Shown: positions 1 to 24,383 of the stretch, piece by piece
How positions within the stretch are numbered: the stretch's first letter is position 1
Layout: every line of letters begins with the position of its first letter
Source of the DNA: a virus
Virus record (IMG/VR): IMGVR_UViG_3300017987_002574
Location: 1 to 24,472 of that record
Strand: one strand, 5' to 3'
Length of the DNA stretch: 24,472 nucleotides
Notes under the pieces: model-generated
The model's database searches: none
The model's input: the letters and a program-made list of their open reading frames with translations, nothing else
Told to the model about the DNA's origin: nothing
Program-made: the position numbers and the translations under genes

Positions 1-96
1 AAGGAGCACATCCTCTATCCGGATCGCCTCGAGGAGAGCGATCCTTACCTTTCCCGATGGATGAAGGAGGCCTTCAATGCTTCGTCGGACCTTTGA
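1..96 (+). CDS. C-terminal end of a probable portal protein (partial)
   Basis: An open frame enters the window at base 1 and reads 31 residues, ending SSDL, to a TGA at 94-96. The start lies outside the window. The next gene begins inside it at 77, and its SD (AAGGAGG, 64-70) is embedded in this coding sequence, so the two are translationally coupled. The tail is too short to identify by itself. In phages with Mu-type heads the portal gene usually lies just upstream of the F-like head morphogenesis gene, here at 1414, so portal is the best guess. A terminase large subunit or another head gene is possible. The frame is well supported; the function is inferred from position only. Confidence 0.45.
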   Translation, partial: KEHILYPDRLEESDPYLSRWMKEAFNASSDL

Positions 97-352
97 CGTC
101 GACGGTGCTTGGCTCGAGCTCACCCTCGAGGGGATGAGCTTCGGGGACGCAACCGGAGAGCTCGAGGAGGTCCTCGAGGACCTCGAGGAGAACGGGCTTC
201 CCGAGAGGACCGGCGGGACCGAGGGAGACGCTCAGGTCGAGAGCGTCGTCTTCGTCCCCGCGACGGTCTTCCAGGCCGACGAGGTCGAGCGATACCTCGA
301 GGAGAAGGGCTTCACGGTGGACGAGAGACCCCCAGGAGGAGGAGACGAATGA
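77..352 (+). CDS. Small acidic protein of unknown function (91 aa)
   Basis: The protein is 91 residues and very acidic, with a run of Glu/Asp-rich helix around residues 28-40 (EELEEVLEDLEE-like) and an alternating beta/alpha pattern towards the C-terminus. No family is recognised. The start is supported by a perfect SD (AAGGAGG at 64-70, six bases upstream) that lies inside the preceding gene. The stop TGA at 350-352 overlaps the ATG of the next gene (ATGA), as expected for one operon. The acidic, compact sequence would suit a small virion assembly factor, but that is only inference from its place between the presumed portal and head morphogenesis genes. Confidence 0.75.
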   Translation: MLRRTFDVDGAWLELTLEGMSFGDATGELEEVLEDLEENGLPERTGGTEGDAQVESVVFVPATVFQADEVERYLEEKGFTVDERPPGGGDE

Positions 353-741
353 GCAAGGGTAGATGGAAGTGGATTCTCGCGTGGATCAACGGCTTCGGGG
401 AGGTCGCCTTTCAGGTCGACCCGGACGTCTGGAAGGAGCGCGACAAGCATCGGCGCCTCACGATCCGGAGGTTGACCCTCCTCCTCGCGGGGCCGAAGGG
501 GATTCAACTTGCTCGGTGGATTCCCTTCGCGAAGATCGACGGCGGCTCGGAGCTCGTCTCCGGGGAGGAGATCACCCTCGAGACCCGTCTCGTCGGGATC
601 GTCGCGAAGCCCTCGAGGAAGCTCGAGGACGGTCTCCTCGAGACATGGACGAGCATCGTCACGTCGACGCCGGGGGGTCTCCCTCCGGGTCGCAGGCCGG
701 GCGGAAACGACCGGGGAGGTCCTCGGGGGCTCATCCGGTAG
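349..741 (+). CDS. Unknown head-region protein (130 aa)
   Basis: The ATG at 349 overlaps the previous stop (ATGA), with a GGAGGAGGAG SD at 335-344. The first 90 residues look folded: a Trp-rich N-terminus (W6, W8, W12), then basic and hydrophobic strands. The last 30 residues are Gly/Pro/Arg-rich and probably disordered. A longer reading in the same frame back to 109 is unlikely, because its extra N-terminus is a compositionally biased Arg-rich shadow of the neighbouring gene. No family is recognised. It lies in the operon between the presumed portal and F-like genes. Confidence 0.7.
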   Translation: MSKGRWKWILAWINGFGEVAFQVDPDVWKERDKHRRLTIRRLTLLLAGPKGIQLARWIPFAKIDGGSELVSGEEITLETRLVGIVAKPSRKLEDGLLETWTSIVTSTPGGLPPGRRPGGNDRGGPRGLIR

Positions 742-751
742 GGAGGCTTTC

Positions 752-1417
752 ATGGGCTCGATGAAGGAGCTTCGCGTCGCGATGAGCGACGAGGACAAGG
801 AGGCCCTCTTCGCCTCCTGGCGCGAGGAGGATCATCCTCGAGACGGCGGGAAGTTCGCCCCGAAGGAGGGCTCCGAGGCGCACGCGAAGAAGCACGGCTA
901 CTACGGGAAGCATTCCATCGGCGACTCGGTGAAGCGGATCGTCGAGAAGGAGGTCGCCGGGGCGAAGGACAAGAGCCCGAAGGCGATCACCGATTCCCTC
1001 ATGAAGCGCTTCGAGAAGAGCGTCAAGGATGAGAAGTCGAAGGCGGGCCTCCGGGGGGCGATCGAGGAGTACGTCGGGAAGCTCGGGAAGAAGGCCTCGA
1101 AGGGGGGACGGGTCGACCCGAAACACAAACCGGCGACAAGCGGGAGCGGGCTCACGAGGCCGGGGAAAACGGGGCGGGTCGAGACCCCGAAGTACGATCC
1201 TCCCCCCAGGGAGCCCGGAGAGGGCGGGAGGCTCTACAAGTCGGAGGGCAGTCTCATCGTGAATGACTGGCTCGGGAAGATCGACGAGGCATCCTCTCCG
1301 AAGGACCTCTCGAAGATCGAGGCCTCCATCGTCGAGGATCACGAGGACGGGCTTCTCGACTACCGCGAGAAGACGGGGCTCCTCTTGGAGATCAAGGACA
1401 GGAAAGGCAAGAAGTGA
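752..1417 (+). CDS. Lys-rich head-associated protein with an HPRDGGKFAP motif (221 aa)
   Basis: The protein has 221 residues. Near residues 25-38 it carries HPRDGGKFAPKEG, a variant of the HPRD..GRF motif often seen in phage minor head proteins and portal-linked extensions. A Lys-rich helical middle (residues 45-125) is followed by a Pro/Gly linker and a helical C-terminus. The start at 752 has GGGAGG at 741-746. A second ATG three codons later (761) is possible. The frame stays open upstream to 509, but that extension is Arg/Ser-rich shadow sequence. The stop overlaps the GTG of the next gene. Its position just before the F-like gene suggests an internal head or scaffold accessory role; the exact function is unknown. 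Confidence 0.7.
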   Translation: MGSMKELRVAMSDEDKEALFASWREEDHPRDGGKFAPKEGSEAHAKKHGYYGKHSIGDSVKRIVEKEVAGAKDKSPKAITDSLMKRFEKSVKDEKSKAGLRGAIEEYVGKLGKKASKGGRVDPKHKPATSGSGLTRPGKTGRVETPKYDPPPREPGEGGRLYKSEGSLIVNDWLGKIDEASSPKDLSKIEASIVEDHEDGLLDYREKTGLLLEIKDRKGKK

Positions 1418-2376
1418 TCGACGGACGCGACGAGATCCTCGAGCTCCTCCGGAAGAGCGCCGCCCCCTTTCGCGACGTCCTCCTCGAGCTCGCCCGCGCG
1501 GAGGCGGTCCCGAGAGAGGGACGGCGCCGGGCGGCGATCGAGGAGCTCGCGGTCCTCTTCCGGAACACCCTCGGGCTCGCCGACCTCCTGGGGCGGCGGC
1601 GCCTCGAGCTCTCCGCGCGCGGCAGGACGAAGCAATCCCTCCGGGCCCGAGCCCCGGACGAGGCCTCCCTTTTCTCGGCCGAGGGGCCGATCCGATTCGC
1701 GGTCAATTCTCCGATCGTCCCGGCGGTCGAATTTGAGGAGGCGGTTGCCGACGTCGTCTCGAGGACCCCGGAGCTTGCGCGCTCCTGGGAGGAGGTCTCG
1801 AGGGTCTACCAGAAGCACGGATTCGCGGTCGCGCGCTCGACCGACCTCGTCGTGACGAACGCGGTCAAGAGGTCGATCGAGCGGCTCGCGAAGAAGGGGG
1901 CCGACCTCTCGACGGCGACCCGGACGATCGATGCAGTCGGCTCCGACCTCGAGGGATGGTCGAGAGGCTACGCCGAGAACGTCTACCGAACGAACATGAG
2001 CCGGGCCTACTCGGCCGGGCGGTTCCGTCACGCGACCGACCCGGACGTCTCGAGAGTGATCGGCGCCCTCGAGTTCAATGCGACGAAGAACGCGAGGACC
2101 CGGAGGGGGAGGCCGAAGGAGGACAAGGGGGAGAACCATCTCGCGGCCGACGGCATCCTCGCCCATCCGCGCGATTCCATCTGGCGCGGCTACTCCTCCC
2201 CCCTCGGCTACAACTGCCATTGTGGGCTCCGCGAAGTCGACCGGTGGGAGCTCGAGGAGCGGCGGCTACTCGAGGGATCGCGGGTCAAGCGCTACCTCCC
2301 CGCGAGCTTCCCCCAGGTCGTGAAGACCCCCGGCTTCGGGGACAGGCCCGACCTCGAGATCTACGGGGGGCGGTAG
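1414..2376 (+). CDS. Phage Mu F-like head morphogenesis protein (320 aa)
   Basis: The protein resembles the Mu gpF/SPP1 gp7 minor head protein family, which binds the portal and takes part in head assembly. The diagnostic part is residues 240-275, where NHLAADG is followed by an IWRGYSSPLGYNCHCGLREV-type segment. This is the family's conserved His and CxC block. A central segment (RTNMSRAYSAGR, around residue 195) also fits the family. The N-terminal 110 residues are helical and Leu/Arg/Glu-rich. The start is GTG at 1414, inside the previous stop (GTGA). The length is typical of a free-standing member without an extra C-terminal enzyme domain. Its place between portal and protease/scaffold is canonical. 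Confidence 0.85.
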   Translation: MIDGRDEILELLRKSAAPFRDVLLELARAEAVPREGRRRAAIEELAVLFRNTLGLADLLGRRRLELSARGRTKQSLRARAPDEASLFSAEGPIRFAVNSPIVPAVEFEEAVADVVSRTPELARSWEEVSRVYQKHGFAVARSTDLVVTNAVKRSIERLAKKGADLSTATRTIDAVGSDLEGWSRGYAENVYRTNMSRAYSAGRFRHATDPDVSRVIGALEFNATKNARTRRGRPKEDKGENHLAADGILAHPRDSIWRGYSSPLGYNCHCGLREVDRWELEERRLLEGSRVKRYLPASFPQVVKTPGFGDRPDLEIYGGR

Positions 2377-2856
2377 ATGCCCGAAACATACGTCCAGCTA
2401 TGCGGGCTCCCGGGGTCCGGGAACAGACTTTTGATGCGGCTCTTCCAATCTGCCGGGGCCGAGTCGGACGTTCAGCACGGGAGCGCCGGGACTCACTACA
2501 TCCGAGAGGCTCTCGAGAAGCACGCCGGTCACCGTCGCTTCGCCGTGATCCCCGTCCGGGACTGGCAGGCAGAGATGACCTCGAGGAATCGCCGAATGGA
2601 TTGGGGAGAGCACGAGGCCAAGAAGCCCTTCGCCGTCCTCTCGGTGATGCGGGTCCTTGTCGAGCTCGAGATACCTACCCGGATGGTCTCCTTCGAGTCG
2701 ATCTTCCTCTATCCGGAGGAGTCGAAGGACCTCCTCCTCGACTGGCTAGGGTTGCCCTGGGTCCCCTGGCCCGAGGGGGACTATCCACGAGACGAAAACG
2801 CGAAGTGGAGGACGACCCGGTACATAGCCGGGCTTCCATGCGATAGGGGGCCTTGA
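2377..2856 (+). CDS. Sulfotransferase-like P-loop protein (159 aa)
   Basis: Residues 9-20 read CGLPGSGNRLLM, close to the 5'-phosphosulfate-binding loop of PAPS-dependent sulfotransferases. A strand ending V60-R61-D62-W63 with S69 nearby sits where the family has its 3'-phosphate-binding Arg/Ser. V104-SFE and then L119 to P127 (LLLDWLGLP) match the late VxYExL...L.xFLGLP pattern. At 159 residues it is shorter than typical bacterial members, with much of the middle missing. The ATG follows the F-like stop with no gap. Small sulfotransferase-like proteins occur in other phages, with unknown targets. Here it could modify a capsid component or host surface sugar; equally it could be a nucleotide kinase-like P-loop protein without sulfotransferase activity. 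Confidence 0.6.
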   Translation: MPETYVQLCGLPGSGNRLLMRLFQSAGAESDVQHGSAGTHYIREALEKHAGHRRFAVIPVRDWQAEMTSRNRRMDWGEHEAKKPFAVLSVMRVLVELEIPTRMVSFESIFLYPEESKDLLLDWLGLPWVPWPEGDYPRDENAKWRTTRYIAGLPCDRGP

Positions 2857-3593
2857 TGGCGGTTGCATTCGACGCGGCTTCGAGCTCTTCTCCGTCCGGA
2901 GTGAGCAACTCCTTCTCATGGGCTCACACTTGCTCAGGGTCAAATCGGATACTCGTCGTCTCCGTGTTCCACGAGAAGACCCCGGACCCGGCCTATTCGA
3001 CGACCGTCACCTATGACGGGGTCGCTATGACGAGGCACGGGGCGATCGACGTCGGGGGGGGCGGGGGGTCGGTAGACCGGATCGAGGCCTTCTACCTCGT
3101 GGCCCCGGCGGCGGGGTCAAAGACGGTTGCGGTTACGATCTCGGCGTCCGTCGATCGCGGGTATTTCGCTGGCCTAGCGGTCTCGATCAACGGTGCCGCC
3201 CAGGCGGCGCCGACGGACGTCCAATCCGCGCAAAACGCAGCGACGGACCACATCACGGATTCGGTTACGATCGCGAGGGCGGATAGCCTCGTCGTCACAA
3301 CGGCCGGTCACGGGCTCGATACCTCCGTGACCATGGTCCCCGACCATGGGGTCGAGCGGCTCGACGTCGGAACGAATCAGGCCGGAGGGGGCAGGGCATC
3401 CATGGGGACCCAGGTCGAGGCGGGGGTGGGCTCGGCATCCGTGGGGTGGTCGAGCGACACTTCGCAGAGAATGAACATCTACGCCCTTGTATTCCCCCCC
3501 CCGCTCCCACCCCCGCCCCCGGGAAACAAAGACTCGGAGGTATGCTTCCATGGTCCGAAGCGCTTCCACGCCTCTTGCGGAATCCACGGTTGA
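2856..3593 (+). CDS. Beta-sandwich virion surface protein with a polyproline tail (245 aa)
   Basis: Residues 1-210 follow a repeated-strand pattern (SNRILVVSVFHE, TTVTYDGVAMTR, IEAFYLVAPAAGSKTVAV) known from a beta-sandwich module in phage fibres and bacterial surface proteins. It is probably exposed on the virion. A proline run (residues about 214-222, PPPLPPPPP) leads to a short tail rich in Cys, His and Lys. The ATG at 2856 overlaps the preceding TGA by one base, with AGGGGG upstream. The proline run is encoded by C9 at 3494-3502, so a slip there would change the C-terminus: one shift fuses it to the next gene, the other ends at 3607. The stated end is the literal reading. Function is inferred from fold pattern and position. 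Confidence 0.65.
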   Translation: MAVAFDAASSSSPSGVSNSFSWAHTCSGSNRILVVSVFHEKTPDPAYSTTVTYDGVAMTRHGAIDVGGGGGSVDRIEAFYLVAPAAGSKTVAVTISASVDRGYFAGLAVSINGAAQAAPTDVQSAQNAATDHITDSVTIARADSLVVTTAGHGLDTSVTMVPDHGVERLDVGTNQAGGGRASMGTQVEAGVGSASVGWSSDTSQRMNIYALVFPPPLPPPPPGNKDSEVCFHGPKRFHASCGIHG

Positions 3594-3915
3594 AAGGGAA
3601 GGCATGAAGAGGATCGAATTGACGGCCCAGGAGGTCTACCGGCTCGGCAACGCACACTCAGACCTTGCGCGTTCCAGGGACGCCCTCGAGGCGGCTCATG
3701 GAGCGTACAAGCGAGCTCAGGCGATCACCGGAGAGGAGCTCCTCAAGGTCACGAGGCGGGCCGGGCTATCGGACGAGGATGTTTCGGCGACCTCCCTCGG
3801 GGTCGTATACCGGGACGATGGGGTCTTCCTCGAGGAAGAAATGCCCCCCAGGGAGAGCCAAGAAGGGCCCGGCCCGGCGGCTCCTCCGGTCGACGCGGAG
3901 GAGGCCTCCAAGTAG
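3550..3915 (+). CDS. Small helical protein of unknown function (121 aa, start uncertain)
   Basis: The core starts at MKRIELTAQEVYRLGNAHSD, with a helical, probably coiled-coil segment through about residue 75, then a beta hairpin and a Pro/Glu-rich acidic tail. Two starts are possible. ATG 3550 has GGAGG at 3536-3540, nine bases upstream, and overlaps the previous gene by 44 bases. ATG 3604 (103 aa) has only a weak SD. I chose 3550 because of its SD, but 3604 gives the better-looking N-terminus. No family is recognised. It precedes the protease-scaffold gene, so a small assembly factor is possible. Confidence 0.6.
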   Translation: MVRSASTPLAESTVEREGMKRIELTAQEVYRLGNAHSDLARSRDALEAAHGAYKRAQAITGEELLKVTRRAGLSDEDVSATSLGVVYRDDGVFLEEEMPPRESQEGPGPAAPPVDAEEASK

Positions 3916-3918
3916 GAA

Positions 3919-3980
3919 ACCCCTTGCGGTACTTTCGAATCTCTGGTAGAGCTTCGAAGCGGCGAGAACACTCAAGGGGT
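3919..3980 (+). other. Intergenic RNA hairpin upstream of the protease-scaffold gene
   Basis: ACCCCTTG (3919-3926) is perfectly complementary to CAAGGGGT (3973-3980). Nested inside are TTCGAA (3934-3939) with TTCGAA (3953-3958) and CTCT/AGAG (3941-3944 with 3948-3951) around a GGT loop. The outer arm ends two bases before the GGGAG SD (3982-3986) of the next gene, which starts with the rare codon TTG. There is no U tract, so a terminator is unlikely. A translational or RNA-processing role is inferred. Confidence 0.6.
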
Positions 3981-3994
3981 CGGGAGATGGCAGG

Positions 3995-5452
3995 TTGCCG
4001 ACCTCGACCGAACGCTCGCCGCAATCGAAAACCGGGCTTCCCGGTGGTGGCTACACGGCTCGAGAAAACCCTGACGGGTCCTGGGATATCCTAGACGTTG
4101 AGATCCTCGGGCCGGTCGCGGCGGGCGCCCGGAAGAACCCGAACCCGATCGGCCGGGCGTGGTTTCACGCCGCGATCGGGACCTCCCGCCGAAGGGTCTC
4201 CGAAGGCTACCTCGCCCCTCTCCACGTCTATCACCACGACGACTACGGGACGAAGCGGACGATCCGGGCGGGCTTCTTCCTCCCGACGAAGGTCCGGCCG
4301 ATTCGCTACGAGGGGAAGACGACAGACGTCACCTTCGCCGACTTAAAGAGCATCCCCCCGAAGATCTTCGAGATCATCGAGAGGGGGGAGCTCCCCTACC
4401 GATCGGTCGAGGTCCATTCCTGGGCGACTCCGGAGATCAACTCGCTCGCCCTTCTCCCCGATGAGGTCCCCTACTTCCGATTCCCGGCTCTCTGGATCTC
4501 GAAGAAGATCCCCTACCGGGGGGAGGCCCCCGAGGAGCCCGCTCGCTTCTTCGCCGTCGAGGACGGCTACGCCGCCGTCGCGGTTTTCAAACTCGAGGAG
4601 GATTCACGGATGGCAATCGAGAAGATCGACCCCAAGACGGGCAAGCCGGTGGAGATCTCCCGCGACGAGCTCGCCGAGATCCGCACCGGCCCGGATCGGT
4701 TCGCCGACGAGGAGGACGACGAGGTCGATATCTCGATCGACGTCGACGACGACGAGGGAGCGGATCTCGAGGACGAGGAGGAGAAGGATGCCGCCGAGCT
4801 CCAAGACGAGGAGCCGGTCGACGCCCCCCCGCCGGAGGCGATCGAGGAGGCCCCCGTCGAGGAGGCCCCGCCCGCATGGGCGGGTGCGATGATCTCCGGG
4901 CTCGAGGCGTTGAATGCCGGGGTCGGGAAGGTCCTCGAGCTTCTCGGAGGAGCCCCCGAAGCTCCTTCTCCCCAGGAGACCGCCCCCGTCGCCCCCCCTC
5001 CCCCGCAGGCCTTCACCGTCGAGGAGGCGAAGAGGGCCGGGGAGGTCGCCGGGCTCAGGGCGAAGGACCGCTCGAGGCAGAAGAGCGACAAGCTCCGCGC
5101 GACGATCGACAAGACGATCGCCGACCTCACGGCCGACGGCTACGAGATCGACAAGGGCGCCCGGGAGAAGCTCGAGGTCGCCGCGAGATCCGGGAAGGCC
5201 GTGCTCAAGGCCTTCGTCGGGGTCTTCCGGGAGAACGCATTTCAGGACCCCCCCGAGACCCTCGACGCCCTCGATGGAGAGGGATCGGAGCCGAGGCTCC
5301 CCCCGGAGGTCATGAGCTACCGGGATCGCCCCGAGCTCTTCTCGATCGCGCAGGAGGCGAGCGCGACCTTCGACGCGCTCGGGAAGCGTGTCGGGACGCA
5401 GTCCAGAAAGAGATTCATCGAGGTCGAGGTCGCACGAGCGACCGCCTCGTGA
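3995..5452 (+). CDS. Capsid maturation protease fused to scaffold (485 aa)
   Basis: Residues 1-205 look like a prohead protease. They include a GRAWFHAAIGT strand, a His cluster (H77, H80, H81), and YRSVEVHS (S137, H141) followed by LALLPDEVPYF (151-161), the usual pattern around a serine in scaffold-linked proteases. Which residues are catalytic is a guess. Residues 235-300 are strongly acidic and Pro-rich, and 330-485 are charged helix, as in scaffolds. The start is TTG at 3995 with GGGAG eight bases upstream; no better in-frame start exists before residue 30. An ATG with its own SD at codon 206 would give free scaffold. Order before decoration and major capsid genes is canonical. Confidence 0.75.
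   Translation: MPTSTERSPQSKTGLPGGGYTARENPDGSWDILDVEILGPVAAGARKNPNPIGRAWFHAAIGTSRRRVSEGYLAPLHVYHHDDYGTKRTIRAGFFLPTKVRPIRYEGKTTDVTFADLKSIPPKIFEIIERGELPYRSVEVHSWATPEINSLALLPDEVPYFRFPALWISKKIPYRGEAPEEPARFFAVEDGYAAVAVFKLEEDSRMAIEKIDPKTGKPVEISRDELAEIRTGPDRFADEEDDEVDISIDVDDDEGADLEDEEEKDAAELQDEEPVDAPPPEAIEEAPVEEAPPAWAGAMISGLEALNAGVGKVLELLGGAPEAPSPQETAPVAPPPPQAFTVEEAKRAGEVAGLRAKDRSRQKSDKLRATIDKTIADLTADGYEIDKGAREKLEVAARSGKAVLKAFVGVFRENAFQDPPETLDALDGEGSEPRLPPEVMSYRDRPELFSIAQEASATFDALGKRVGTQSRKRFIEVEVARATAS
4610..5452 (+). CDS. Nested scaffolding protein from an internal start (280 aa)
   Basis: In frame within the protease-scaffold gene, ATG 4610 (MAIEKIDPK) is preceded by GAGGAGGA at 4595-4602, with eight bases between the GGAGG core and the ATG. 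It lies exactly at the boundary between the protease-like domain and the acidic, helical scaffold-like part. Lambda (C and Nu3) and many other phages make scaffold this way. The product would be acidic in its first third and coiled-coil-like at its end. It is proposed as a second product, not a replacement for the full-length protein. Confidence 0.55.
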   Translation: MAIEKIDPKTGKPVEISRDELAEIRTGPDRFADEEDDEVDISIDVDDDEGADLEDEEEKDAAELQDEEPVDAPPPEAIEEAPVEEAPPAWAGAMISGLEALNAGVGKVLELLGGAPEAPSPQETAPVAPPPPQAFTVEEAKRAGEVAGLRAKDRSRQKSDKLRATIDKTIADLTADGYEIDKGAREKLEVAARSGKAVLKAFVGVFRENAFQDPPETLDALDGEGSEPRLPPEVMSYRDRPELFSIAQEASATFDALGKRVGTQSRKRFIEVEVARATAS

Positions 5453-5460
5453 ACCGTTGA

Positions 5461-5478
5461 CGGGGATACGACTCCCCG
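5461..5478 (+). other. Intergenic hairpin before the decoration gene
   Basis: CGGGGA (5461-5466) pairs perfectly with TCCCCG (5473-5478) around a six-base loop. It lies in the 42-base gap after the scaffold gene and just ahead of the SD (GGAAGG/AGGAAAG) of the next gene. No U tract follows. It may be an mRNA stability or processing element. Confidence 0.5.
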
Positions 5479-5494
5479 AGGAAGGTAGGAAAGA

Positions 5495-6337
5495 ATGGCT
5501 CTCACCGCATCGGTAGCCCGCGAGGAGCGGGGCTTCTACTACTTCGACCCCGAGGTCCAGAACGCCGCCCAGGTCTACGCGGGCTCCTACTGCGCGGGCG
5601 GGTCGGAGACGCACGGCACGGCCGCGAAGGTCGGCTACGCCTACCCCTTCAACGACGAGGACGGCGCGATCCCGCTCGGCTTCGCGCAGCAGGCCGTCCT
5701 CGGGACCGCCGTCGCGCCCAGGCCGACGGCCGAGATCGTCGTCCGGGGCCGGGTCTACGAGAACCTCGCCGTCACCGGCCTCGCCGGGAACGCGAGCGAC
5801 GTCTTCAAGCTCGTCTACGCGACGGACGACGGGACCTTCACGTTCACGAGGACGACGCCGAACCTGCCGGTCGGCTTCGTCGTGAACTGGGCCTCGGCGA
5901 CGGCGGCTCACGTCTACTTCTTCTCGATGGCCGAGCTCGCGATCCTCGCGCTCGCCGGGGGGCAGCGGAAGACGTGGCATCTCCTCTCGACGACCTACGA
6001 ATTCGCGGCGACCGGCAACATCGCGACGGAGATCGTCGCCCCGTGTCACGGGCGCATCCTCACCGTCTACGCGATTTGCACGGCGGCGCCCGCCGACACG
6101 AACGTCGCGGGGACGATCAACCTCGAGATCGGCGGCGTCAACGTGACCGGCGGCGTCGTGACCTACAACTTCGCCGACACGGTCGGCCTCAAGCTCGCGG
6201 GGACGGCGGTCACGGCCGCGAACGTCTTCCACGAGGGCGACCTCATCGACGTGGAGATCACCTCCGGCGCGGCCGGGACGGTGGGAGACGGGATGCTCTC
6301 CCTCTTCGTCGACTACGAGCCCCTCCTCGGAATGTAG
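5495..6337 (+). CDS. Capsid decoration-like protein with an extra C-terminal beta domain (280 aa)
   Basis: Residues 1-150 resemble phage head decoration or capsid cement proteins. The N-terminus VAREERGFYYFDPEVQN, a QVYAG strand, a LGFAQQA segment and VRGRVYENLAVTGLAG fit that pattern, as does a late VYATDDGTFTFT hairpin. Residues 150-280 form a second beta-rich unit (VAPCHGRILTVYAICTAAP, INLEIGGVNVTGG). Typical decoration proteins are about 110-150 residues, so this one carries an additional domain that may point outward from the capsid. The ATG at 5495 has AGGAAAG upstream. Its place between scaffold and major capsid genes is the usual one for decoration proteins. Assignment is from residue pattern and synteny. 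Confidence 0.65.
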   Translation: MALTASVAREERGFYYFDPEVQNAAQVYAGSYCAGGSETHGTAAKVGYAYPFNDEDGAIPLGFAQQAVLGTAVAPRPTAEIVVRGRVYENLAVTGLAGNASDVFKLVYATDDGTFTFTRTTPNLPVGFVVNWASATAAHVYFFSMAELAILALAGGQRKTWHLLSTTYEFAATGNIATEIVAPCHGRILTVYAICTAAPADTNVAGTINLEIGGVNVTGGVVTYNFADTVGLKLAGTAVTAANVFHEGDLIDVEITSGAAGTVGDGMLSLFVDYEPLLGM

Positions 6338-6392
6338 CGAGGGGCCCGATCCTGAATCCTGAAACGGTAGGCGAGAACCGGAGGGGGCGGGA

Positions 6393-6430
6393 GCCGGGCG
6401 AAAGCCCGGCCTAGGCCGGGCGAGGCCCGG
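6393..6430 (+). other. Tandem hairpins with alternative pairing upstream of the capsid gene
   Basis: GCCGGGC (6393-6399), GAAA (6400-6403) and GCCCGGC (6404-6410) form a seven-pair stem closed by a GNRA tetraloop. CCGGGC (6416-6421) and GCCCGG (6425-6430) form a second stem. The 3' arm of the first (6404-6411) is also perfectly complementary to 6414-6421, so a competing fold exists. The element sits two bases before the AGAGGAG SD of the major capsid gene. No U tract follows. Confidence 0.6.
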
Positions 6431-6448
6431 TAGAGAGGAGCGGGTCAA

Positions 6449-7444
6449 ATGGCCCAGGTCATATCGGCGGCGGTCCTCACGGCGGGCCTCCGCAACACCT
6501 TCGCGGACGCCTATCAGCAGACGGTGGACGCCCGAACGGCACGGCTCGGAAAGGTGATGGAGCTCGGCGTCCCGTCCGACAAGCGGGAAGAGCTTTACGC
6601 CTTCTTCGAGACGGCCCCCTACCCGAAGCGATGGCCGAGGGGACGGAACATCTCCTCGAAGCCCTTCGACTCGGTCGAGTTCTCCGTCGTCAACTACGAT
6701 TGGGGACGGCGGATCTCCTGGCACGAGGACGACCGCGAGGACGACCAGACGCAGACCCTCTTCGCCCAGGCGAAGAGCCTCGGCCGTCACTTCGCGACCC
6801 TTCACGAGAGGATCTTCTTTCAGATGATCCTCGCGTCGACGAACCTCGACCTCCTCCCGGCGGTCCCGAACGCCCCCGACGGGGCGGCGATCTACTCGGC
6901 GACCGACGGCGGGGGCGCGGCGCGCTTCGGAGTCGTGGGCGGGAACATCATCACCGGGACGGGAGTCGCGACCGCGAACGCGATCCAGAACGACGTCCTC
7001 AACGGAATCGAGCGCTTCAAGCAGTTTCAGGACACCGAGGCGCAACCGCTCTGGGATGAGGCGATGCTCGACGGTGGGGGCTACGTCCTCATCTACAACG
7101 TGGCGAACGACGCGAACGTGCGGCGGGCGCTCAAGGCGACGACCTACCTCGCGAGGGACCCGGGCGGAAACGCGGCCGTGGCGAACCTCGTCGTCGAGGA
7201 GGGGATCAACCTCGAGCTCTGGCCGACGCAGAGGATCACGACCGACGACCTCTACCTCTTCGCGGCGGGGTGCGATCACAAGGCGGTCTTCCAGCAGGAG
7301 CGGAAGGCGCTCCGCGAGTCGGTCGCGGGGATGGACAACTCCGACCATGTGCGCGACACCAAGGAGGAGTATCTCCAGTACGACGCGCGCTACGGGTACG
7401 GGAGCTTCCTCCCCTACCAGACGGTCCAGATCAACAACCCCTAG
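6449..7444 (+). CDS. Major capsid protein, Mu gpT-like (331 aa)
   Basis: Size, position and pattern fit the Mu gpT-type major head subunit with an HK97-like fold. The N-terminus (SAAVLTAGLRNTFADAYQ) is the usual opening helix. A block with ELYAFFETAPYPKRWPRGR and then FSVVNYDWGRRISWHEDD (residues about 48-95) corresponds to the E-loop and P-domain start. YVLIYNVANDANVRRAL and LELWPTQRITTDDLYLF follow. The start has AGAGGAG about nine bases upstream. The gene is flanked on both sides by strong hairpins, which would suit high and separate expression. It follows the protease-scaffold and decoration genes, as in Mu-like heads. A related HK97-fold family other than gpT is the main alternative. Confidence 0.85.
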   Translation: MAQVISAAVLTAGLRNTFADAYQQTVDARTARLGKVMELGVPSDKREELYAFFETAPYPKRWPRGRNISSKPFDSVEFSVVNYDWGRRISWHEDDREDDQTQTLFAQAKSLGRHFATLHERIFFQMILASTNLDLLPAVPNAPDGAAIYSATDGGGAARFGVVGGNIITGTGVATANAIQNDVLNGIERFKQFQDTEAQPLWDEAMLDGGGYVLIYNVANDANVRRALKATTYLARDPGGNAAVANLVVEEGINLELWPTQRITTDDLYLFAAGCDHKAVFQQERKALRESVAGMDNSDHVRDTKEEYLQYDARYGYGSFLPYQTVQINNP

Positions 7445-7461
7445 ATCCCCAGGGGCGAGGC

Positions 7462-7486
7462 GCGGGCGGGGATCTTCCCCGCCCGC
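7462..7486 (+). other. Perfect 11-bp hairpin after the capsid gene
   Basis: GCGGGCGGGGA (7462-7472) pairs with TCCCCGCCCGC (7476-7486) across a three-base loop, 18 bases after the capsid stop codon. The sequence after it is not T-rich, so it is not a classical intrinsic terminator. It could pause polymerase, stabilise the capsid mRNA 3' end or mark a processing site. Confidence 0.65.
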
Positions 7487-7523
7487 ATAGAGAACGGCGA
7501 GACCCCGAGAGAAGGAGGAATGA

Positions 7524-8141
7524 ATGCCGAAACTGCCAGAAGCGCCGACCGCGCACGACGTGATCCCGGACGAGGATATCGAGACTTCTCCTCCTTCCGG
7601 CGACCTCGAGGTCGCCGAGAGGGTCTCTCAGACGCGCGCCTCCGAGCTCGATCTCGGGGGCGCCGTCACGATTCCGAGAGAGGAGCTCGAGGCCGAGATC
7701 TTCGAGGCCGAGCCCGAGACCTTCCGCTTCTGGATCGGGACGAAGGCGACCTCTCCGATCCAGAACGCGACCGTCGGGGGAGTGACCTTCCCGAGCTTCA
7801 CGGGGGCGCTACGTCATACCGCGAAGCTGGAGCCGATCATCCCGAGGACCCGGGGGATCGTCGTCGACCTCTCGGAAGCGGACGTCGGCCGGATCGTGAA
7901 GGCAGTAAAGAACCGAGTCGTCCGGAGCTCAGGGAGGACCGCTTACATCCTCTCGAGGTCGAGCGCTCGCTACCGGCCCGCTCCTGGGGATCAGCCCCTC
8001 GCGGGGCATCTCTACATGGTCAAGATCGGGGAGAGGATGCCGCTCGACTGGCGCGAGCATGAGCCCCCTTCGATGCTCGCCCCCAGGATGCGAGATCCCG
8101 AAGAGGAGCTCGAGGAGGAGCTCGAGCCCGAGGAGGTCTAG
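7524..8141 (+). CDS. Unknown protein following the major capsid gene (205 aa)
   Basis: The N-terminal 60 residues are acidic and low in complexity (ETSPPSGDLEVAERV...). The middle (residues 65-175) looks folded, with FRFWIGTKATSPIQNATVGGVTFPSF and a basic KNRVVRSSGRTAYILS stretch. The C-terminus is an acidic tail (EEELEEELEPEEV). The ATG at 7524 has GAAGGAGGA just upstream; a nearby ATG at 7520 is in another frame. No family is recognised. Genes at this position often encode capsid accessory or connector proteins. The acidic tails at both ends are a visible oddity. Confidence 0.65.
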   Translation: MPKLPEAPTAHDVIPDEDIETSPPSGDLEVAERVSQTRASELDLGGAVTIPREELEAEIFEAEPETFRFWIGTKATSPIQNATVGGVTFPSFTGALRHTAKLEPIIPRTRGIVVDLSEADVGRIVKAVKNRVVRSSGRTAYILSRSSARYRPAPGDQPLAGHLYMVKIGERMPLDWREHEPPSMLAPRMRDPEEELEEELEPEEV

Positions 8142-8144
8142 CCG

Positions 8145-9425
8145 ATGGCAAGCCCGACAGAGGCCGAGATCCAGGCGCAGATATCCGCTTGCGTCGACCT
8201 CCTCGAAGAGATCTACAACTTCGGATCGGTCAATGCGACGAACCTTGTAGACCTCGAGGATGCGATCGTGCAGGCCCTCGAGGGAGATCAGTCGGCCGAC
8301 GTCCTCACGGCCCTATCGGCGATCCGGAGCACGGTCGCCGCCGGGGTCTCCGGGGCGAACGCGGCGGCGCTCCTCGGCCCCCTACTCCTCGCCTACGCGA
8401 AGGAGCTCGACGTCCCGTACCGAGACCCCCCCTCGATCTTCAAAGAGCTAACCGACGACTTCATTACCGGAGGGAAGTCGGTCAACTCGAGGAACATCGC
8501 GCACGGCGTACCGGCGGCGGGGGGCGGAAACGTCGGGGACGGGGTCCTGAATCGACTCGTCACCGATGAAGAGGCCCTCGAGATCGAGAATACGACGTGC
8601 GACTCGAAGGTCGCGCTATGTACGGCCGACGAGCACGGCGGGGGCGCTACGGAGCACGAGGAGAGGTTTTCGATCCGAGGCTCGCACGCTGAGAAGGATC
8701 TCCTCGAGCTCACCGGTTCGGGGAAGAGCGGGGCCCTCGTCGCGCTCTCGGCTCGTCACTCCCAAGCCTACATCCGAAACCCGAGCTTCGACGACGTCTC
8801 GGCGACGGCCCTCCCGGCGATCACGGGCCTCACGGGGTGGACGGTCGCGGGGGCGATCGCGAACCTCAAGAACGATGCGACGAACTTCTACCGGGATTAT
8901 CAGGGCGCGGCGTCTCCGGCGTCTCTTCGCTTCGACGCGGACGAGCGTATCTACCAGAACTTGAACGAGCTCGGGGCCCGCTTCGCCCCGAACGTCCCCG
9001 TCTACGTCCAGATCGCCTACAACCGGGAGATAGGCGCCGGGGACGGCACCCTTACCCTCCGGTGGGGGACAAACTCGAAGAGCGTCGTCCTTGCGGCGCA
9101 AGCCGGATGGAACATCCTCCGACTCGATCTCGATGAAAATCTCTGGTTCGACAACTGGAACGAGGAGGACCCCGACGTCGAGGTCGAGCTCTCGGGCAGG
9201 ACGACCGGATACGTCCTCGTCGACGATCTCATCGTCTCGCCCATGACGCTTTTCGACGGAACGTGGTACGCCCTCGTAGGGGGCGAGACCCCCTTTCTCC
9301 GGGACGACGTTTTCACCTGGGCGGATACGGAGGCCGGGGCGAAGATCCAGACGTGGCTATGGCGGGCATTCGGCCTCTACCTCCCCCACAACAACGCCGG
9401 GGCGGAAACGTGGGTTGATCCCTAG
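8145..9425 (+). CDS. Virion surface protein with a carbohydrate-binding-like beta domain (426 aa)
   Basis: Residues 1-95 are helical and Ala-rich, consistent with an anchoring or trimerising part. Residues 95-200 are mixed. Residues about 205-365 resemble a carbohydrate-binding module: the opening YIRNPSFDD...LTGWTVAG is the common start of CBM-like jelly rolls, and VYVQIAYN, LTLRWGTNS and YVLVDDLIVSP are strands of the same fold. The last 50 residues are Trp-rich. The ATG at 8145 has GAGGAGGT at 8130-8137. It sits between head and connector genes, which suggests a head fibre or surface appendage. The sugar-binding role is inferred from pattern only. Confidence 0.6.
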   Translation: MASPTEAEIQAQISACVDLLEEIYNFGSVNATNLVDLEDAIVQALEGDQSADVLTALSAIRSTVAAGVSGANAAALLGPLLLAYAKELDVPYRDPPSIFKELTDDFITGGKSVNSRNIAHGVPAAGGGNVGDGVLNRLVTDEEALEIENTTCDSKVALCTADEHGGGATEHEERFSIRGSHAEKDLLELTGSGKSGALVALSARHSQAYIRNPSFDDVSATALPAITGLTGWTVAGAIANLKNDATNFYRDYQGAASPASLRFDADERIYQNLNELGARFAPNVPVYVQIAYNREIGAGDGTLTLRWGTNSKSVVLAAQAGWNILRLDLDENLWFDNWNEEDPDVEVELSGRTTGYVLVDDLIVSPMTLFDGTWYALVGGETPFLRDDVFTWADTEAGAKIQTWLWRAFGLYLPHNNAGAETWVDP

Positions 9426-9436
9426 CAGGAGGCATC

Positions 9437-10009
9437 ATGGAGCGTGTACCGAGCTTTACGAGAAGCGAATTCTCCTGCCGGGACGTCGGAGACAGGTATG
9501 CGTCCTCTCGCCTGGGGGGCCGGTTTGCGGTCTGCCATGCGACCCCGGGGACCGTGATCGACGAATCGGGCGTGACCGCATTCTCGGCGACAGACCCCTC
9601 CTTCGCCTTCTACCAGACGGCGCAGTCTACCCGGGTGATCCTCTCGGGGATGACCCTCACGCAGACCGGCACCGTCGCCGGGGACGATATCGGGATCGCG
9701 ATCGTGATCGACACGACGAACCGATACTCGGCGGGCGGGACCCTCGTCACGCCGCAACCGATGGACGGCGGGCAATCCGGAGCGGCGAATGTCTCCTTCC
9801 GCACGCAACCGACCCTCGCGGCGGCGGGGACAACTCACCGGACGGTCTTCCATGCGGGGGCAACGGAGGCGATCGGGACCGTCTCGAGCTTCTGTTTCGG
9901 TGACGGAATCATGATTGCGGGCACGGGCACGATCGCGATCTACACCTGGGCGGCGACAACCGGCCCCCAATGGTACTTTGACTTCGAGATCATCGAGGAG
10001 ACGGTTTAG
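9437..10009 (+). CDS. Beta-rich presumed virion protein (190 aa)
   Basis: The sequence is mostly short strands and turns (STRVILSGMTLTQTGTV, DIGIAIVIDTTNRYSAGG, GIMIAGTGTIAIYTWA), typical of a jelly-roll or fibre knob. No catalytic motif is visible. It begins with a short charged segment containing a Cys. The ATG has an AGGAGG SD in the 11-base gap after the preceding gene. The stop TAG shares its last base with the GTG of the next gene. It and the preceding gene form a pair of likely exposed proteins placed before the connector genes. The family is not recognised. Confidence 0.6.
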   Translation: MERVPSFTRSEFSCRDVGDRYASSRLGGRFAVCHATPGTVIDESGVTAFSATDPSFAFYQTAQSTRVILSGMTLTQTGTVAGDDIGIAIVIDTTNRYSAGGTLVTPQPMDGGQSGAANVSFRTQPTLAAAGTTHRTVFHAGATEAIGTVSSFCFGDGIMIAGTGTIAIYTWAATTGPQWYFDFEIIEETV

Positions 10010-10470
10010 TGGCCCTCGAGGACGAGGTAAAGGACCGGTACGGAGACGAACACCTCGTCAACATCACGAATCCCTTTGACGAGGACCCGACGACGATCGA
10101 CGCGGCCCGGCTTTCGAAGGCCGCGCGCGACGTCGAGGCCGACTTCGAGGTCTACGCCCAGGTCGAATACGACGGGGCCGACGCGAGGCACGTCTCCCTC
10201 GCGTGCGAGGGGGTTGTCCTCAAGCTCCTTGTCCGGGCCGGAGAGCTCAAGCCGAAGGAGGAGGCCGACTGGCGGAAGAACGATCTCAAGGAGGGCCTCG
10301 CCCTCGTGACCTCCCGTGACCGCATCCTTCCTACCTCGGGCTCCGAGCTCACCGTCCCCTCGGAGCGAACTAGCGACGAGGACGTCTACGCCGACTTCGA
10401 CCGGACTCGCTTCCGCCGAATCGTCCCCTCTTCTCCTGCCGTCGGGGAGGACGACGGCGTCCTCGAGTAG
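10009..10470 (+). CDS. Head-tail connector, Mu gp36-like (153 aa)
   Basis: The N-terminal half (EVKDRYGDEHLVNITNP, then TTIDAARLSKAARDVEADFEVYAQV) has the layout of the gp36/DUF1320 head-completion family: a short ...RYG.E.L segment, then a helix carrying ID....AA.DVEA. The C-terminal third is Ser/Pro-rich and acidic. The start is GTG at 10009, overlapping the previous stop by one base. Family members bind under the portal and help join tail to head. Its place before the gpG-like gene is the usual order in Mu-like modules. Similarity is judged by eye. Confidence 0.6.
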   Translation: MALEDEVKDRYGDEHLVNITNPFDEDPTTIDAARLSKAARDVEADFEVYAQVEYDGADARHVSLACEGVVLKLLVRAGELKPKEEADWRKNDLKEGLALVTSRDRILPTSGSELTVPSERTSDEDVYADFDRTRFRRIVPSSPAVGEDDGVLE

Positions 10471-10474
10471 CCGC

Positions 10475-11113
10475 ATGGCCCGCGACGTGGAGATCCGCGC
10501 GGGCGACGCGATGGCCTACCTCGTGCGGCTTAAAAAGACCCTCGAAGACCCCGAGCCTCTTCGAAAGATGCTAGGCGCCCTCGTCGTCGCCCAGGCGCAA
10601 AGGGCATTCCGAGAGGAGGCCTTCGACGGGGAGAAATGGCTCGAGAGGTATCCAAATCAGCAAGACCCGGTCGTGAACCTCGCCGGAGTCGTCGCCGACC
10701 TCTCTCGAGGCCTCGACACGCCGAAGCCTCACCGCTTCGAGCGGCGCCCGGTGGGGAAGGACGAGGGCGATCTATGGCAGTCGATTTCAGACCGGCAGAC
10801 GTCGGTCAGGACGCCGGGGAGATACGTCGTCGAGGTCGGCTCGGTGGTCGAGCACGCTTCCCGATATCAATTCGGAGGGGTACACTCACAACCGGTTTCC
10901 GAAGGAACGAAAGCGAGAATCGCGACGTTCATCGAGAGCCCGGCCGGGGCCCCCTTCTGGAAGAAGCTATTCTTCCTTACGAGGGACGACGTGACCGAGC
11001 TAGATACAGACTTGATCCCCAGGCCGTACCTCGGGATCACGAAGGCGCTCAAGGCGAAGATCGTCGCTGCTACCGAGACGGAGCTCGAGGAGCTCAAGCC
11101 GGAGAGGGGTTAA
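10475..11113 (+). CDS. Mu gpG-like virion morphogenesis protein (212 aa)
   Basis: The pattern matches the phage virion morphogenesis (gpG/tail completion) family. A helical N-terminus with VVAQAQRAF precedes DLWQSISDRQ, VEVGSVVEHASRYQFGGVH (residues about 115-137) and IPRPYLGIT (about 182-190). The family has a substrate-like L..SI.......VG....YA..HQFGG......R..LG signature. It probably acts in joining the tail to the head. The ATG at 10475 follows the previous stop closely with a poor SD, so coupling is likely. A longer frame reaching back to 10316 is rejected because that part overlaps the connector gene and is Ser/Thr/Arg shadow sequence. Confidence 0.7.
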   Translation: MARDVEIRAGDAMAYLVRLKKTLEDPEPLRKMLGALVVAQAQRAFREEAFDGEKWLERYPNQQDPVVNLAGVVADLSRGLDTPKPHRFERRPVGKDEGDLWQSISDRQTSVRTPGRYVVEVGSVVEHASRYQFGGVHSQPVSEGTKARIATFIESPAGAPFWKKLFFLTRDDVTELDTDLIPRPYLGITKALKAKIVAATETELEELKPERG

Positions 11114-11114
11114 C

Positions 11115-11672
11115 ATGGCGAACCCGTACTCGAGGCACGTCAAGAGAATCCCGGGGAGACTCTACAAGGACCCGACGGATACGAGCCTCGCCGCCCCATA
11201 CGGGGGGACCCCCCTCGGGCTCGCTCGAGACGTCGAGTTTCGGCCGAACGCGAAGGCCCGCGAGGAGATCGCGGAAGAGTGGGGGAATCAGCGGGCGGCG
11301 GTCTACTACGCCGGGAGCTCGGCCTCCCTCTCTTGCGTCCTCCGCGAGCTCGACGACGACGCTCTCCTTGCCGTCTTGCCTTTCGCCAAGGAAGGCGCAT
11401 CCGGTCACGTCCTCATGCACGAGGAGCCCGACGGGGCGGGCGCCTTCCGGGCGGGGACAAGGCTCTCCTCCTTCGCGCTCCTCTTCGCCCCGGAGGCCGA
11501 AGATCAACACCCATGGATCTACTTTCCCGAGGCGGTAGCCGCTCTCGATGAAAGCGCCGTTCTTCAAGCGTCGATCGGGACGGAGCTCGGGATCGCGGTC
11601 GTCTTCTACGCTCTCCCGAAGAACGGGACCGGCGCCTTCGAGCAGGGCATGAGAGGAGACCTCTCGGTATGA
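11115..11672 (+). CDS. Probable tail tube protein (185 aa)
   Basis: The sequence contains YGGTPLGLARDVEFRPN (residues about 29-46), EEWGNQRAAVYYAGSSASLSCVLRELDDDALLAVLP (53-90) and a final FYALPKNGTGAFEQG strand. This resembles the beta-rich tail tube proteins of non-contractile phages, which often have a YGGT.LG opening and a long strand-helix core. The length is normal for a tube subunit. The ATG at 11115 has GAGAGGGG upstream, and the stop overlaps the next ATG. Position after the gpG-like gene and before a small helical gene fits a tube protein. The alternative is another neck protein. Confidence 0.5.
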   Translation: MANPYSRHVKRIPGRLYKDPTDTSLAAPYGGTPLGLARDVEFRPNAKAREEIAEEWGNQRAAVYYAGSSASLSCVLRELDDDALLAVLPFAKEGASGHVLMHEEPDGAGAFRAGTRLSSFALLFAPEAEDQHPWIYFPEAVAALDESAVLQASIGTELGIAVVFYALPKNGTGAFEQGMRGDLSV

Positions 11673-12010
11673 TCGACCTCCTATTCCTATCCGTCGAGGA
11701 CCTCGCCCTCGAGGTCGAGGGAGACGACGAGGGCCTCCTCGAGCTCCTCACGGCCGAGGCCGAGCGCTTCCTCCTGGGGGGCGGAACCGTCACACTCGAG
11801 ACGTGGAGAGGGCTCTCCAAGGCATCGAGGGCGGCGCTCGCAAGAGCCGGGGAGGATCTCAGGATCAATCAGGCGGCGGCGATCGCGATCGCGAGCTCGA
11901 ACCCCGTGGCGGCAGCGATGAGCGCGGCCGGGATGGACGAGGACGACGCCTCCGTCCGGTCGGCTCTCATGGCCTCGGGTGATCGGATGGAGAAGGGAGG
12001 CGAGGCGTGA
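11669..12010 (+). CDS. Small helical tail-region protein, possible tail assembly chaperone (113 aa)
   Basis: The protein starts with a hydrophobic strand (MIDLLFLSVEDLALEV) followed by Leu/Glu helices and an Ala/Met-rich C-terminus. It overlaps its neighbours at both ends (ATGA at 11669, GTGA at 12007), so its expression is coupled to both. A small acidic helical protein just after a tail tube gene is often an assembly chaperone for the tape measure. No slippery heptamer of the lambda G/GT type was noticed. Function is inferred from place and composition. Confidence 0.45.
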   Translation: MIDLLFLSVEDLALEVEGDDEGLLELLTAEAERFLLGGGTVTLETWRGLSKASRAALARAGEDLRINQAAAIAIASSNPVAAAMSAAGMDEDDASVRSALMASGDRMEKGGEA

Positions 12011-20102: not shown

Positions 20103-20165
20103 GGCGGGGCGGTTGGCTGGTAAGCTATCCGGGTCCTGTTTCTCTGCCGAATGGACGGAGGAACA

Positions 20166-21382: not shown

Positions 21383-21420
21383 AGCCCCCCGTCGCCTCGA
21401 GCGGCGGGGGGCTCTTTCTT
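21383..21420. terminator. Bidirectional intrinsic terminator
   Basis: Thirteen bases (21383-21395, AGCCCCCCGTCGC) pair with 21401-21413 with one T-G wobble and a five-base loop. Rightward transcripts then read UCUUUCUU. On the other strand the stem is followed by a T-rich tract (complement of ACAAAAGACA), so it also suits leftward transcripts. It lies between the converging structural and early operons. Confidence 0.85.
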
Positions 21421-21437: not shown

Positions 21438-21857
21438 CTAGCCCTCCCCGAGCTTCTTCGCCCGCTTCCGGACCTCCTTCCTCACGATCTCGATCCGCTC
21501 TCCGACCTCCGTATAGCTCCCCGTGTAGCGCCAACCCGTGTCGAGGTATGCGAGGACCTCCCTCCGGATCTTGGGAATGGCCCGCTCGAAGTCTCCCCGG
21601 GGGAGGACGGCGACCCGGTTCGCTTCGTCGAGGATCGCCCGGTGCTCGTCCCGGGCCTTCTTCTCCCGGCGGGCGTCGAGGACCGCCTTCTCGATCTTGG
21701 CGGCGGCTCGGCACGCGGCGGGAGCGAGCACGCCGAAGGCCTCCCTCGCGTCCTCGAAGTCGAGGACCTCCCCGGCCGCGAGGAGGAGGGCCTCGGCCTC
21801 CCTCTCGGTGAGGGCGGTCCCCATGTTTCGGCGCTGATTTAGATAGAGCGTTGTCAC
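21438..21857 (-). CDS. Helical protein of unknown function, last gene of the leftward operon (139 aa)
   Basis: The protein is mostly charged helix: TEREAEALLLAAGEVLDFEDAREAF, then ACRAAAKIEKAVLDARREKKARDEH, and a Lys/Arg-rich C-terminus with YLDTGWRYTGSYTEVGERIEIVRKEV. The start is taken as GTG at 21857, which overlaps the regulator's TGA and has GAGAGGAG upstream. An ATG at 21824 (128 aa) lacks an SD. A longer frame to 21941 overlaps the regulator gene and is shadow sequence. No family is recognised. It ends just before the shared terminator. Confidence 0.65.
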   Translation of the reverse strand: MTTLYLNQRRNMGTALTEREAEALLLAAGEVLDFEDAREAFGVLAPAACRAAAKIEKAVLDARREKKARDEHRAILDEANRVAVLPRGDFERAIPKIRREVLAYLDTGWRYTGSYTEVGERIEIVRKEVRKRAKKLGEG

Positions 21858-22078
21858 TTCGGAAGCTCCTCTCTCTCGAGGTACTCGAGGACGGCCCGCA
21901 CGACCGGGCGGCTCATGGGATAGCTCTCGCCCCGCTCCCAACGCGAGACGGTTTGCGAGGAGACGCCGATCTCAAGGGCGGCGGTCTCCTGGGAGTGGTT
22001 TCGCTCCTCGCGCTTCTTCACGAGGGCGCGGGAGAGGGCCTTCAAGCGGCTTCGGCCCCGGTAGGCCTTCTTACTCAT
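21854..22078 (-). CDS. XRE-family helix-turn-helix regulator (74 aa)
   Basis: Residues 19-52 give a typical Xre/Cro helix-turn-helix: ALVKKREERNHSQETAALEIGVSSQTVSRWERGE. The N-terminal 18 residues are strongly basic, and the end is a short helix. There is no dimerisation or peptidase domain, so it is Cro-sized. It overlaps the preceding gene by eight bases and the next by four, and is the fifth gene of the leftward operon. It probably regulates phage transcription, perhaps the promoter region at 23853-23934, although its targets cannot be read from the sequence. Confidence 0.85.
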   Translation of the reverse strand: MSKKAYRGRSRLKALSRALVKKREERNHSQETAALEIGVSSQTVSRWERGESYPMSRPVVRAVLEYLEREELPK

Positions 22079-23880: not shown

Positions 23881-23920
23881 CTCTAAATCTTGGGAATGGG
23901 TTGTTTTTTTTGGTCTAAGA

Positions 23921-23934
23921 GTCTAGGCTCGCCT
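23921..23934. promoter_or_regulatory. Candidate operator 2, just upstream of the rightward regulator
   Basis: GTCTAGGCTCGCCT repeats operator 1's GTCTAGGC..GCCT with two extra bases in the centre. A further GTCTA lies at 23913-23917. It ends three bases before the ATG of the rightward regulator gene, so a bound repressor would cover its start region. Confidence 0.45.
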
Positions 23935-23937
23935 CGC

Positions 23938-24252: not shown

Positions 24253-24286
24253 AGACAGGCGCCGCCGGGAGGGTCCCGGCGACGCC
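24253..24286 (+). other. Operator-like 11-mer merged with a GC-rich hairpin
   Basis: AGACAGGCGCC (24253-24263) is identical to the minus-strand sequence of operator 1 (23869-23879). The same region forms a hairpin: CGCCGGG (24263-24269) pairs with CCCGGCG (24275-24281), extended by GGCG/CGCC across one mismatch. No U tract follows. It may be a third operator, an attenuator, or both. Confidence 0.4.
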
Positions 24287-24383
24287 CTGGCGAGAACCCC
24301 CGGAAGGGGTCCATGAGTCAAGGCCTCATCTTGGCACGGTGGGGCGCGAGAGTCAACCGATCGAGAGGGAGGAGAATCACCGC

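Follow-up and report, generated by a model that had tools for sequence, protein, structure and literature searches.

A hairpin downstream of the capsid gene, kept across most relatives of an uncultured Mu-related phage

The head genes of an uncultured Mu-related phage, IMG/VR virus record IMGVR_UViG_3300017987_002574 (24,472 bases, 66% G+C; this full stretch is hereafter the window), include a protease/scaffold-like gene, a decoration-like gene and a major capsid gene, with a gap ahead of each and a fourth after the capsid gene (gaps 1 to 4; Table 1). The hairpin of gap 4 recurs in most of the distinct relatives that we compared, and its pairing appears to be under selection. As far as sequence can tell, we give slightly better than even chances to the explanation that the protease-decoration-capsid block is one late transcription or decay unit of a Mu-related head module, closed by this conserved post-capsid hairpin.

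The post-capsid hairpin across relatives

Relatives were collected by scans with the capsid, protease, decoration and g8145 proteins and by one genome scan, which together gave 70 sequences with a capsid match, the window included. We kept 43 loci, having dropped 21 sequences with an identical 100 nucleotides (nt) after the capsid gene, the near-identical L014 and L043, L010, L019 and L020, whose sequence breaks off with the capsid gene or shortly beyond it, and the fragment-like L033. The loci L002, L003 and L033 are copies of the window, with 0 differences in the compared stretches, and bring no independent evidence; L004 (capsid identity 73%) is the sole close relative that is not a copy. 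Among the detectable genes of 21 loci the order is protease, decoration, capsid, next gene and g8145, with the decoration gene undetected in several. The capsid stop of L022 was set by hand at 6907, the frame being broken in that record; the capsid frame there (5992-6907) is split into two overlapping open reading frames (ORFs), by sequencing error or in reality.

A strong stem (z <= -2) follows the capsid stop in 39 of the 43 distinct loci, the window among them, and the fold signal is strongest in the 40-nt window beginning 25 nt past the stop; in five control zones a hairpin of the same z occurs in 7, 0, 14, 9 and 15 of the 43 loci. Hairpins of -12 kcal/mol or better after the stop are likewise found in 39 of 43, and the stem is also present in relatives of 44-47% G+C. 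In an eight-relative alignment made without structure, 6 of 13 stem pairs had changed on both sides, a count that none of 500 shuffles equalled, and sliding the partner abolished the signal (alignment A7 consisted of 71-nt stretches placed by hand around the stems, which MAFFT aligned with no structure given; alignment A8 was left out of the counts). When the window and L004 are stacked by stem, 6 of the 11 pairs of the gap 4 stem differ on both sides. Because these two-sided changes keep the pairing, we take the pairing of the gap 4 stem to be under selection. The script miscalled the start of the gene after the capsid gene in L004, L028 and L022, and gap 4 was judged from other data.

Each gap was also compared with dinucleotide shuffles, and we give p for the whole-gap energy (300 shuffles) followed by p for the best hairpin (150 shuffles). 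Gap 4 reaches 0.010 and 0.027 in the window and 0.007 and 0.000 in L004, where it is the only gap that beats the shuffles. In a ranking of the 60-nt plus-strand windows of the record, gap 4 (up to 30 nt of flank included) has its best window in the strongest 0.7%.

The stem is followed by a U-tract in part of this family. A stem and then at least 5 T in 8 were found in 21 of 43 loci by script and in 24 of 43 after three additions by hand (L038, L039 and L061, in which the stem chosen by the script hid the tail); L009 was labelled as lacking a U-tract though 5 T in 8 follow a weak inner stem, its stronger stem lying beyond the 95 nt searched. In a capsid tree on which these hand-set labels were placed, a 32-locus clade (Shimodaira-Hasegawa-like approximate likelihood ratio test, SH-aLRT, 95) holds all 24 U-tract loci, and the other 11 loci, which include the window, hold none by the same labels. 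That tree was built quickly and rooted at its midpoint, long branches lead to L035, L028, L032 and L005, and it does not establish the 11 as one clade. Stems of -12 kcal/mol or better occur in 31 of 32 loci inside the clade and in 8 of 11 outside it. The form carried by the sister clade is terminator-like, and the hairpin of the window is stable and G+C-rich, as is the stem of an intrinsic terminator (11 base pairs (bp), -24.6 kcal/mol, p 0.01-0.03).

Table 1. Positions of gaps, genes, stems and motif sites in the window
Feature	Position	Strand	Description and basis
Gap 1	3916-3994		79 nt, upstream of protease/scaffold-like gene
Gap 1 outer stem	3920-3926 with 3973-3979	+	CCCCTTG/CAAGGGG; read by eye; fold not beyond chance
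Gap 1 inner dyad	3934-3958	+	25 bp; read by eye; as RNA p 0.06-0.35
Motif, gap 1	3961-3969	+	exact GGCGAGAAC, 2 nt after the dyad
Protease/scaffold-like gene	3995-5452	+	position as in Mu; weak scaffold matches in relatives
Gap 2	5453-5494		42 nt, upstream of decoration-like gene
Gap 2 hairpin	5461-5478	+	6-bp stem and 6-nt loop, 16 nt before decoration start; fold, p 0.03-0.05
Decoration-like virion protein gene	5495-6337	+	PHROG 1731
Gap 3	6338-6448		111 nt, upstream of capsid gene
Motif, gap 3	6370-6378	+	exact GGCGAGAAC
Gap 3 tandem stems	6393-6410, 6416-6430 (span 6393-6430)	+	two stems with repeated arms; fold
Major capsid protein gene, Mu gpT family	6449-7444	+	Pfam and PDB profile matches
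Gap 4	7445-7523		79 nt, downstream of capsid gene
Gap 4 hairpin	7462-7486	+	11-bp stem, 3-nt loop, -24.6 kcal/mol, no U-tract; fold, family-wide stem
Motif variant, gap 4	7496-7504	+	GGCGAGACC, one mismatch; exact in same gap of L004
Yardstick hairpin	21383-21413		13 bp, between convergent operons, U-rich tail on each strand; fold, scan
Hairpin, then motif	24258-24297	+	hairpin 24258-24286 (p 0.06-0.15), then exact GGCGAGAAC 24289-24297; gap after small ORF following regulator gene

The gaps ahead of the capsid gene and a 9-base repeat

The late operon is tightly packed. On a hand-made gene list, with start codons and gene lists read by eye, the genes overlap by 1-4 nt at 9 of its 25 plus-strand junctions and by more at 2; at 9 others they are separated by 0-12 nt and at the remaining 5 by at least 42 nt. 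Gaps make up 2.8% of the window. Four of the five wide gaps (at least 40 nt) lie in the protease-capsid block, the fifth at 20103-20150. A sequence-only reading of the same DNA had described the neighbouring genes as mostly overlapping by one to four bases; the packing is tight, but such overlaps make up 9 of the 25 junctions rather than most of them.

That reading had also placed a stem-loop at every boundary of the block, as one shared arrangement that might cut or insulate it into separately controlled mRNAs. The four gaps exist and their sequence is foldable, with predicted stems of about 6-13 bp, but statistically supported hairpins are confined to gaps 3 and 4. Against the shuffles, gap 1 of the window (p 0.35 and 0.06) is as RNA not beyond chance, gap 2 (0.05 and 0.033) is marginal and gap 3 (0.000 and 0.000) is stronger than all 300; the best windows at gaps 1, 2 and 3 lie in the strongest 11%, 22% and 0.1% of the record. 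The same three gaps in L004 are at chance level (0.97 and 0.44, 0.24 and 0.25, 0.68 and 0.79). No known RNA family was reported by Rfam at the gathering threshold for the window, L004, L030, L021 or L016.

Relatives beyond L004 are as little in keeping with a device common to all four gaps. The gap ahead of the decoration gene could be read in 12 of them and that ahead of the capsid gene in 13; these gaps measure 1-56 nt and their stems are weak or missing, the strongest folds reaching -9.4 kcal/mol ahead of the decoration gene of L016 and -9.2 kcal/mol ahead of the capsid gene of L031. The gaps of L013, L015, L017 and L018, in which the decoration gene was unrecognised, were left unjudged. 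Across the 43 distinct loci, the stretch that immediately precedes the capsid start folds, on average, less strongly than its locus as a whole. A single device at four boundaries is rejected, since outside the window and L004 only gap 4 is kept and gaps 1 and 2 are weak against shuffles. The hairpins of gaps 1 to 3 are lineage-level, local features, of a different class from the hairpin of gap 4; the 25-bp dyad of gap 1 may act in the DNA, as an operator, as well as in the RNA, as a stem.

It is a tentative possibility, well short of even, that the stems ahead of the decoration and capsid ribosome sites act as 5' leader hairpins, which would increase translation or protect the mRNA at its 5' end. 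Gap 2 of L004 carries an 18-nt stem-loop 15 nt before the start, the bases of which differ from those of its counterpart in the window and to which the predicted fold adds one G-U pair, and in both phages gap 3 ends in stems shortly upstream of the capsid ribosome site. In the window, gap 3 can take two mutually exclusive folds, one long hairpin (-33.1 kcal/mol) or the tandem stems (-28.0 kcal/mol). Such leaders would, however, be limited to two lineages, in one of which they are at chance level, given the 12 and 13 other readable relatives described above. A further predicted stem at 6319-6345 of the window spans the decoration stop codon, and the counterpart fold in L004 also has a stem there.

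Closest to the sequence-only reading is the explanation that the 9-base motif GGCGAGAAC and an adjoining stem form a repeated punctuation element (a phage-specific promoter, a regulator site or an RNA processing site) that splits the operon, which we consider unlikely. The motif occurs exactly at three sites in the window (3961, 6370 and 24289) and three in L004 (1011, 3208 and 4361), all on the plus strand and all in gaps; chance predicts about 0.5 and about 0.2 plus-strand sites, respectively. No other 9-mer occurs two or more times in the gaps of each phage. The motif starts 24-79 nt upstream of the next start codon, and its places correspond gap by gap (gaps 1, 3 and 4, with one mismatch in gap 4 of the window). 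If a single mismatch is tolerated, L004 has 15 sites, a count reached by 1 of 200 shuffles, but most of these sites lie inside genes, and the 14 sites of the window are at chance level (shuffle mean 16.8); our claim for the motif therefore rests on its exact copies and their places. It is weakened further by the order of stem and motif, which varies between gaps, by the absence of an exact GGCGAGAAC from the 13.8 kb upstream of the window, and by the spread of the motif, which two lineages only carry. Ten-base forms were absent from all 3 records of a more distant set and present in 1 of the 7 records of another. Stoperators of cluster A mycobacteriophages are likewise asymmetric; they differ in being bound by a repressor. 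Reading by eye showed a 24-codon ORF (24313-24386) 3' of the fourth motif site; its final ATGA overlaps the start that comes next, and it may encode a leader peptide.

We think it improbable that the hairpins are by-products of G+C-rich gaps, meaningless beyond spacing. Such an origin would suit gap 1, the marginal gap 2, gaps 1-3 of L004 and the 15 of 46 loci that miss p <= 0.05 after the capsid gene when whole 100-nt stretches are folded; it fits poorly with gap 3 of the window, which beats every shuffle, and is already contradicted for gap 4 by a stem found in 39 of 43 loci, at lower G+C as well, and with compensatory change. Improbable too is a post-capsid terminator that in the window's lineage lacks its U-tract, keeps its stem and has joined with GGCGAGAAC into a new punctuation signal. 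In such a signal a phage-specific site for starts or cleavage would follow the 3' stem, and its repeated use, at several joints of the operon, would cut the head genes into separate stable mRNAs.

The genes of the block are identified with differing strength. The capsid protein matches Pfam PF10124 (Mu gpT family, E 2.8e-8) and the PDB profiles of gpT-domain capsid proteins (best E 1.2e-4), which bears out the name given by the sequence-only reading. Its decoration label is plausible, since PHROG 1731 (virion structural protein) was matched by 7 of 9 members at E <= 0.1, the window's own match having E 0.0015. For the protease/scaffold-like protein a Pfam search gave nothing useful, weak scaffold matches appeared in at most 3 of 11 members, and the protease name would follow from position, as in Mu; the TTG start of its gene aligns with the ATG at 1044 of L004.

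In INPHARED, tblastn found no match to the capsid of the window or of L005 (E <= 1e-5) or of L031 (E <= 0.1), a collection that may omit records very near the window; the L016 capsid gave one match (21% identity, E 3e-3). Two of the relatives are contigs of metagenome-assembled genomes, L027 labelled Chloroflexi and L028 labelled Bacillota, which does not suffice to name a host; L027 and L009 have the same 100 nt downstream of the capsid gene, and L028 fails the hairpin z test. About 11 kb upstream of the window, in L033 (record G002, 2168-3058), separate pieces of an ORF match the capsid profile, the best of them at i-E 8e-14. A cysteine-bearing stretch of unrelated sequence lies between the pieces, and the ORF encodes a small capsid-fragment-like protein. 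Two helix-turn-helix regulators in opposite directions (21854-22078, minus strand; 23890-24177, plus strand), with a promoter-like site at 23880-23853 on the minus strand, form a lysogeny-switch-like region.

Expression of the block

On the explanation that we prefer, one late unit closed by the gap 4 hairpin, the hairpin would mark the 3' end of the capsid mRNA. Where a U-tract is present it would act as an intrinsic terminator that allows read-through; the tail-less stem of the window's lineage may be a weak terminator or pause point, or a barrier that protects the capsid mRNA from 3'-5' decay. The outcome would be that capsid outnumbers the products of the genes downstream. The upstream gaps would be spacers that probably hold expression signals, including a candidate promoter region ahead of the protease gene, as in Mu, and their 5' stems ahead of the decoration and capsid ribosome sites would be local additions and a different device.

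Several points weigh against this explanation. No U-tract follows the post-capsid stem of the window, its tail ATAGAGAACGGC having 1 T in 8, and a terminator scan reports none at 7462-7486; termination at 7486 is doubtful because the stem lacks this tract, even though another hairpin of this phage is U-tailed (the yardstick hairpin in Table 1). A protective role for the stem is putative. No sigma-70 promoter-like site was found in positions 1-12000 (0.6 expected in shuffles), the 79-nt gap with the dyad ahead of the protease gene included, so that a separate promoter for the block is at most a candidate. Four of the 43 loci (L022, L028, L035 and L059) fail the z test for the post-capsid hairpin, whole 100-nt folds after the capsid gene reach p <= 0.05 in just 31 of 46 loci (the 43 and L010, L014 and L043), and a covariation count of further pair types was no better than shuffles (237 of 500). 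Finally, the Mu-like Klebsiella phage ST405-OXA48phi1.1 has a wide gap ahead of its protease-I-like gene and none after its head protein gene, the next gene beginning on the next base, and the post-capsid gap arrangement is therefore not universal in Mu-like phages. Because of this phage and the fold test on 46 loci, we weigh our explanation slightly lower.

The notion of an insulated block in the sequence-only reading is thus plausible for the whole block and its 3' end, through the parallel with Mu and the retention of the hairpin, but not for each boundary. The analysis points to neither RNase III nor RNase E in particular; a literature search found no paper that joins phage, RNase III, major capsid, mRNA stability and stem-loop, which is a limit of the search and does not imply absence.

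These results indicate the post-capsid stem-loop as a conserved part of Mu-related head modules in uncultured phages, evolving under a pairing constraint. The clade that mostly has a U-tract and the relatives that lack it offer a natural contrast by which termination might be separated from mRNA protection in setting capsid dosage, and GGCGAGAAC provides a defined target for mapping RNA 5' ends.

Comparison with known systems

The closest parallel is Mu itself (AF083977), whose annotation places a predicted terminator and a late promoter (17977-18043) ahead of gene I and another predicted terminator at 20068-20087, 12 nt after capsid gene T (ending at 20055). Like the window, the I-Z-T block of Mu has the order MuF-like, protease/scaffold and gpT capsid genes, a gap ahead of the protease gene and a stem after the capsid gene; unlike it, the protease and capsid genes of Mu overlap and its post-capsid stem has a U-rich tail, which the window's lacks. 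The gaps of Mu were compared by reading, with no search for the GGCGAGAAC motif.

Unrelated phages have a hairpin or terminator in the same place, directly 3' of the major capsid gene in a late operon. SPP1 is reported to have a predicted terminator with a long U-tract at 8775-8815, at the end of capsid gene 13 (7803-8777) (PMC6316719). In LUZ100, which is similar to T7, an apparent strong terminator is reported immediately 3' of the capsid gene, and capsid expression appears bounded by it and a local promoter (PMC10134795). In these accounts the LUZ100 terminator is mapped and paired with a phage promoter, while that of SPP1 is predicted.

For the motif, likenesses are to be found in layout. 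The start-associated sequences (SAS) and extended SAS (ESAS) of cluster K mycobacteriophages are reported to be short asymmetric gap repeats, nearly always in one orientation and about half of them near an inverted repeat (PMC3203893, PMC11373665). SAS is there a 13-bp sequence, GGGATAGGAGCCC, in 11-19 copies that adjoin the start codons of genes in the non-structural half; GGCGAGAAC differs from SAS and ESAS in being 9 bp of other sequence, placed 24-79 nt before the starts of mostly structural genes. The window repeat differs from SAS, which is GGGATAGGAGCCC next to starts, no search for the SAS sequence itself having been made. The stoperators of cluster A, which one of the same sources names as 13-bp transcription-regulation sites (PMC3203893), are likewise short sites in gaps, at 13 bp against 9 bp. 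Taken by analogy, the block looks like a known kind, its hairpin resembling the post-capsid transcript-end marker of phages such as Mu, T7 and SPP1, and the variation of the block would lie in a tail-less stem and a private motif.

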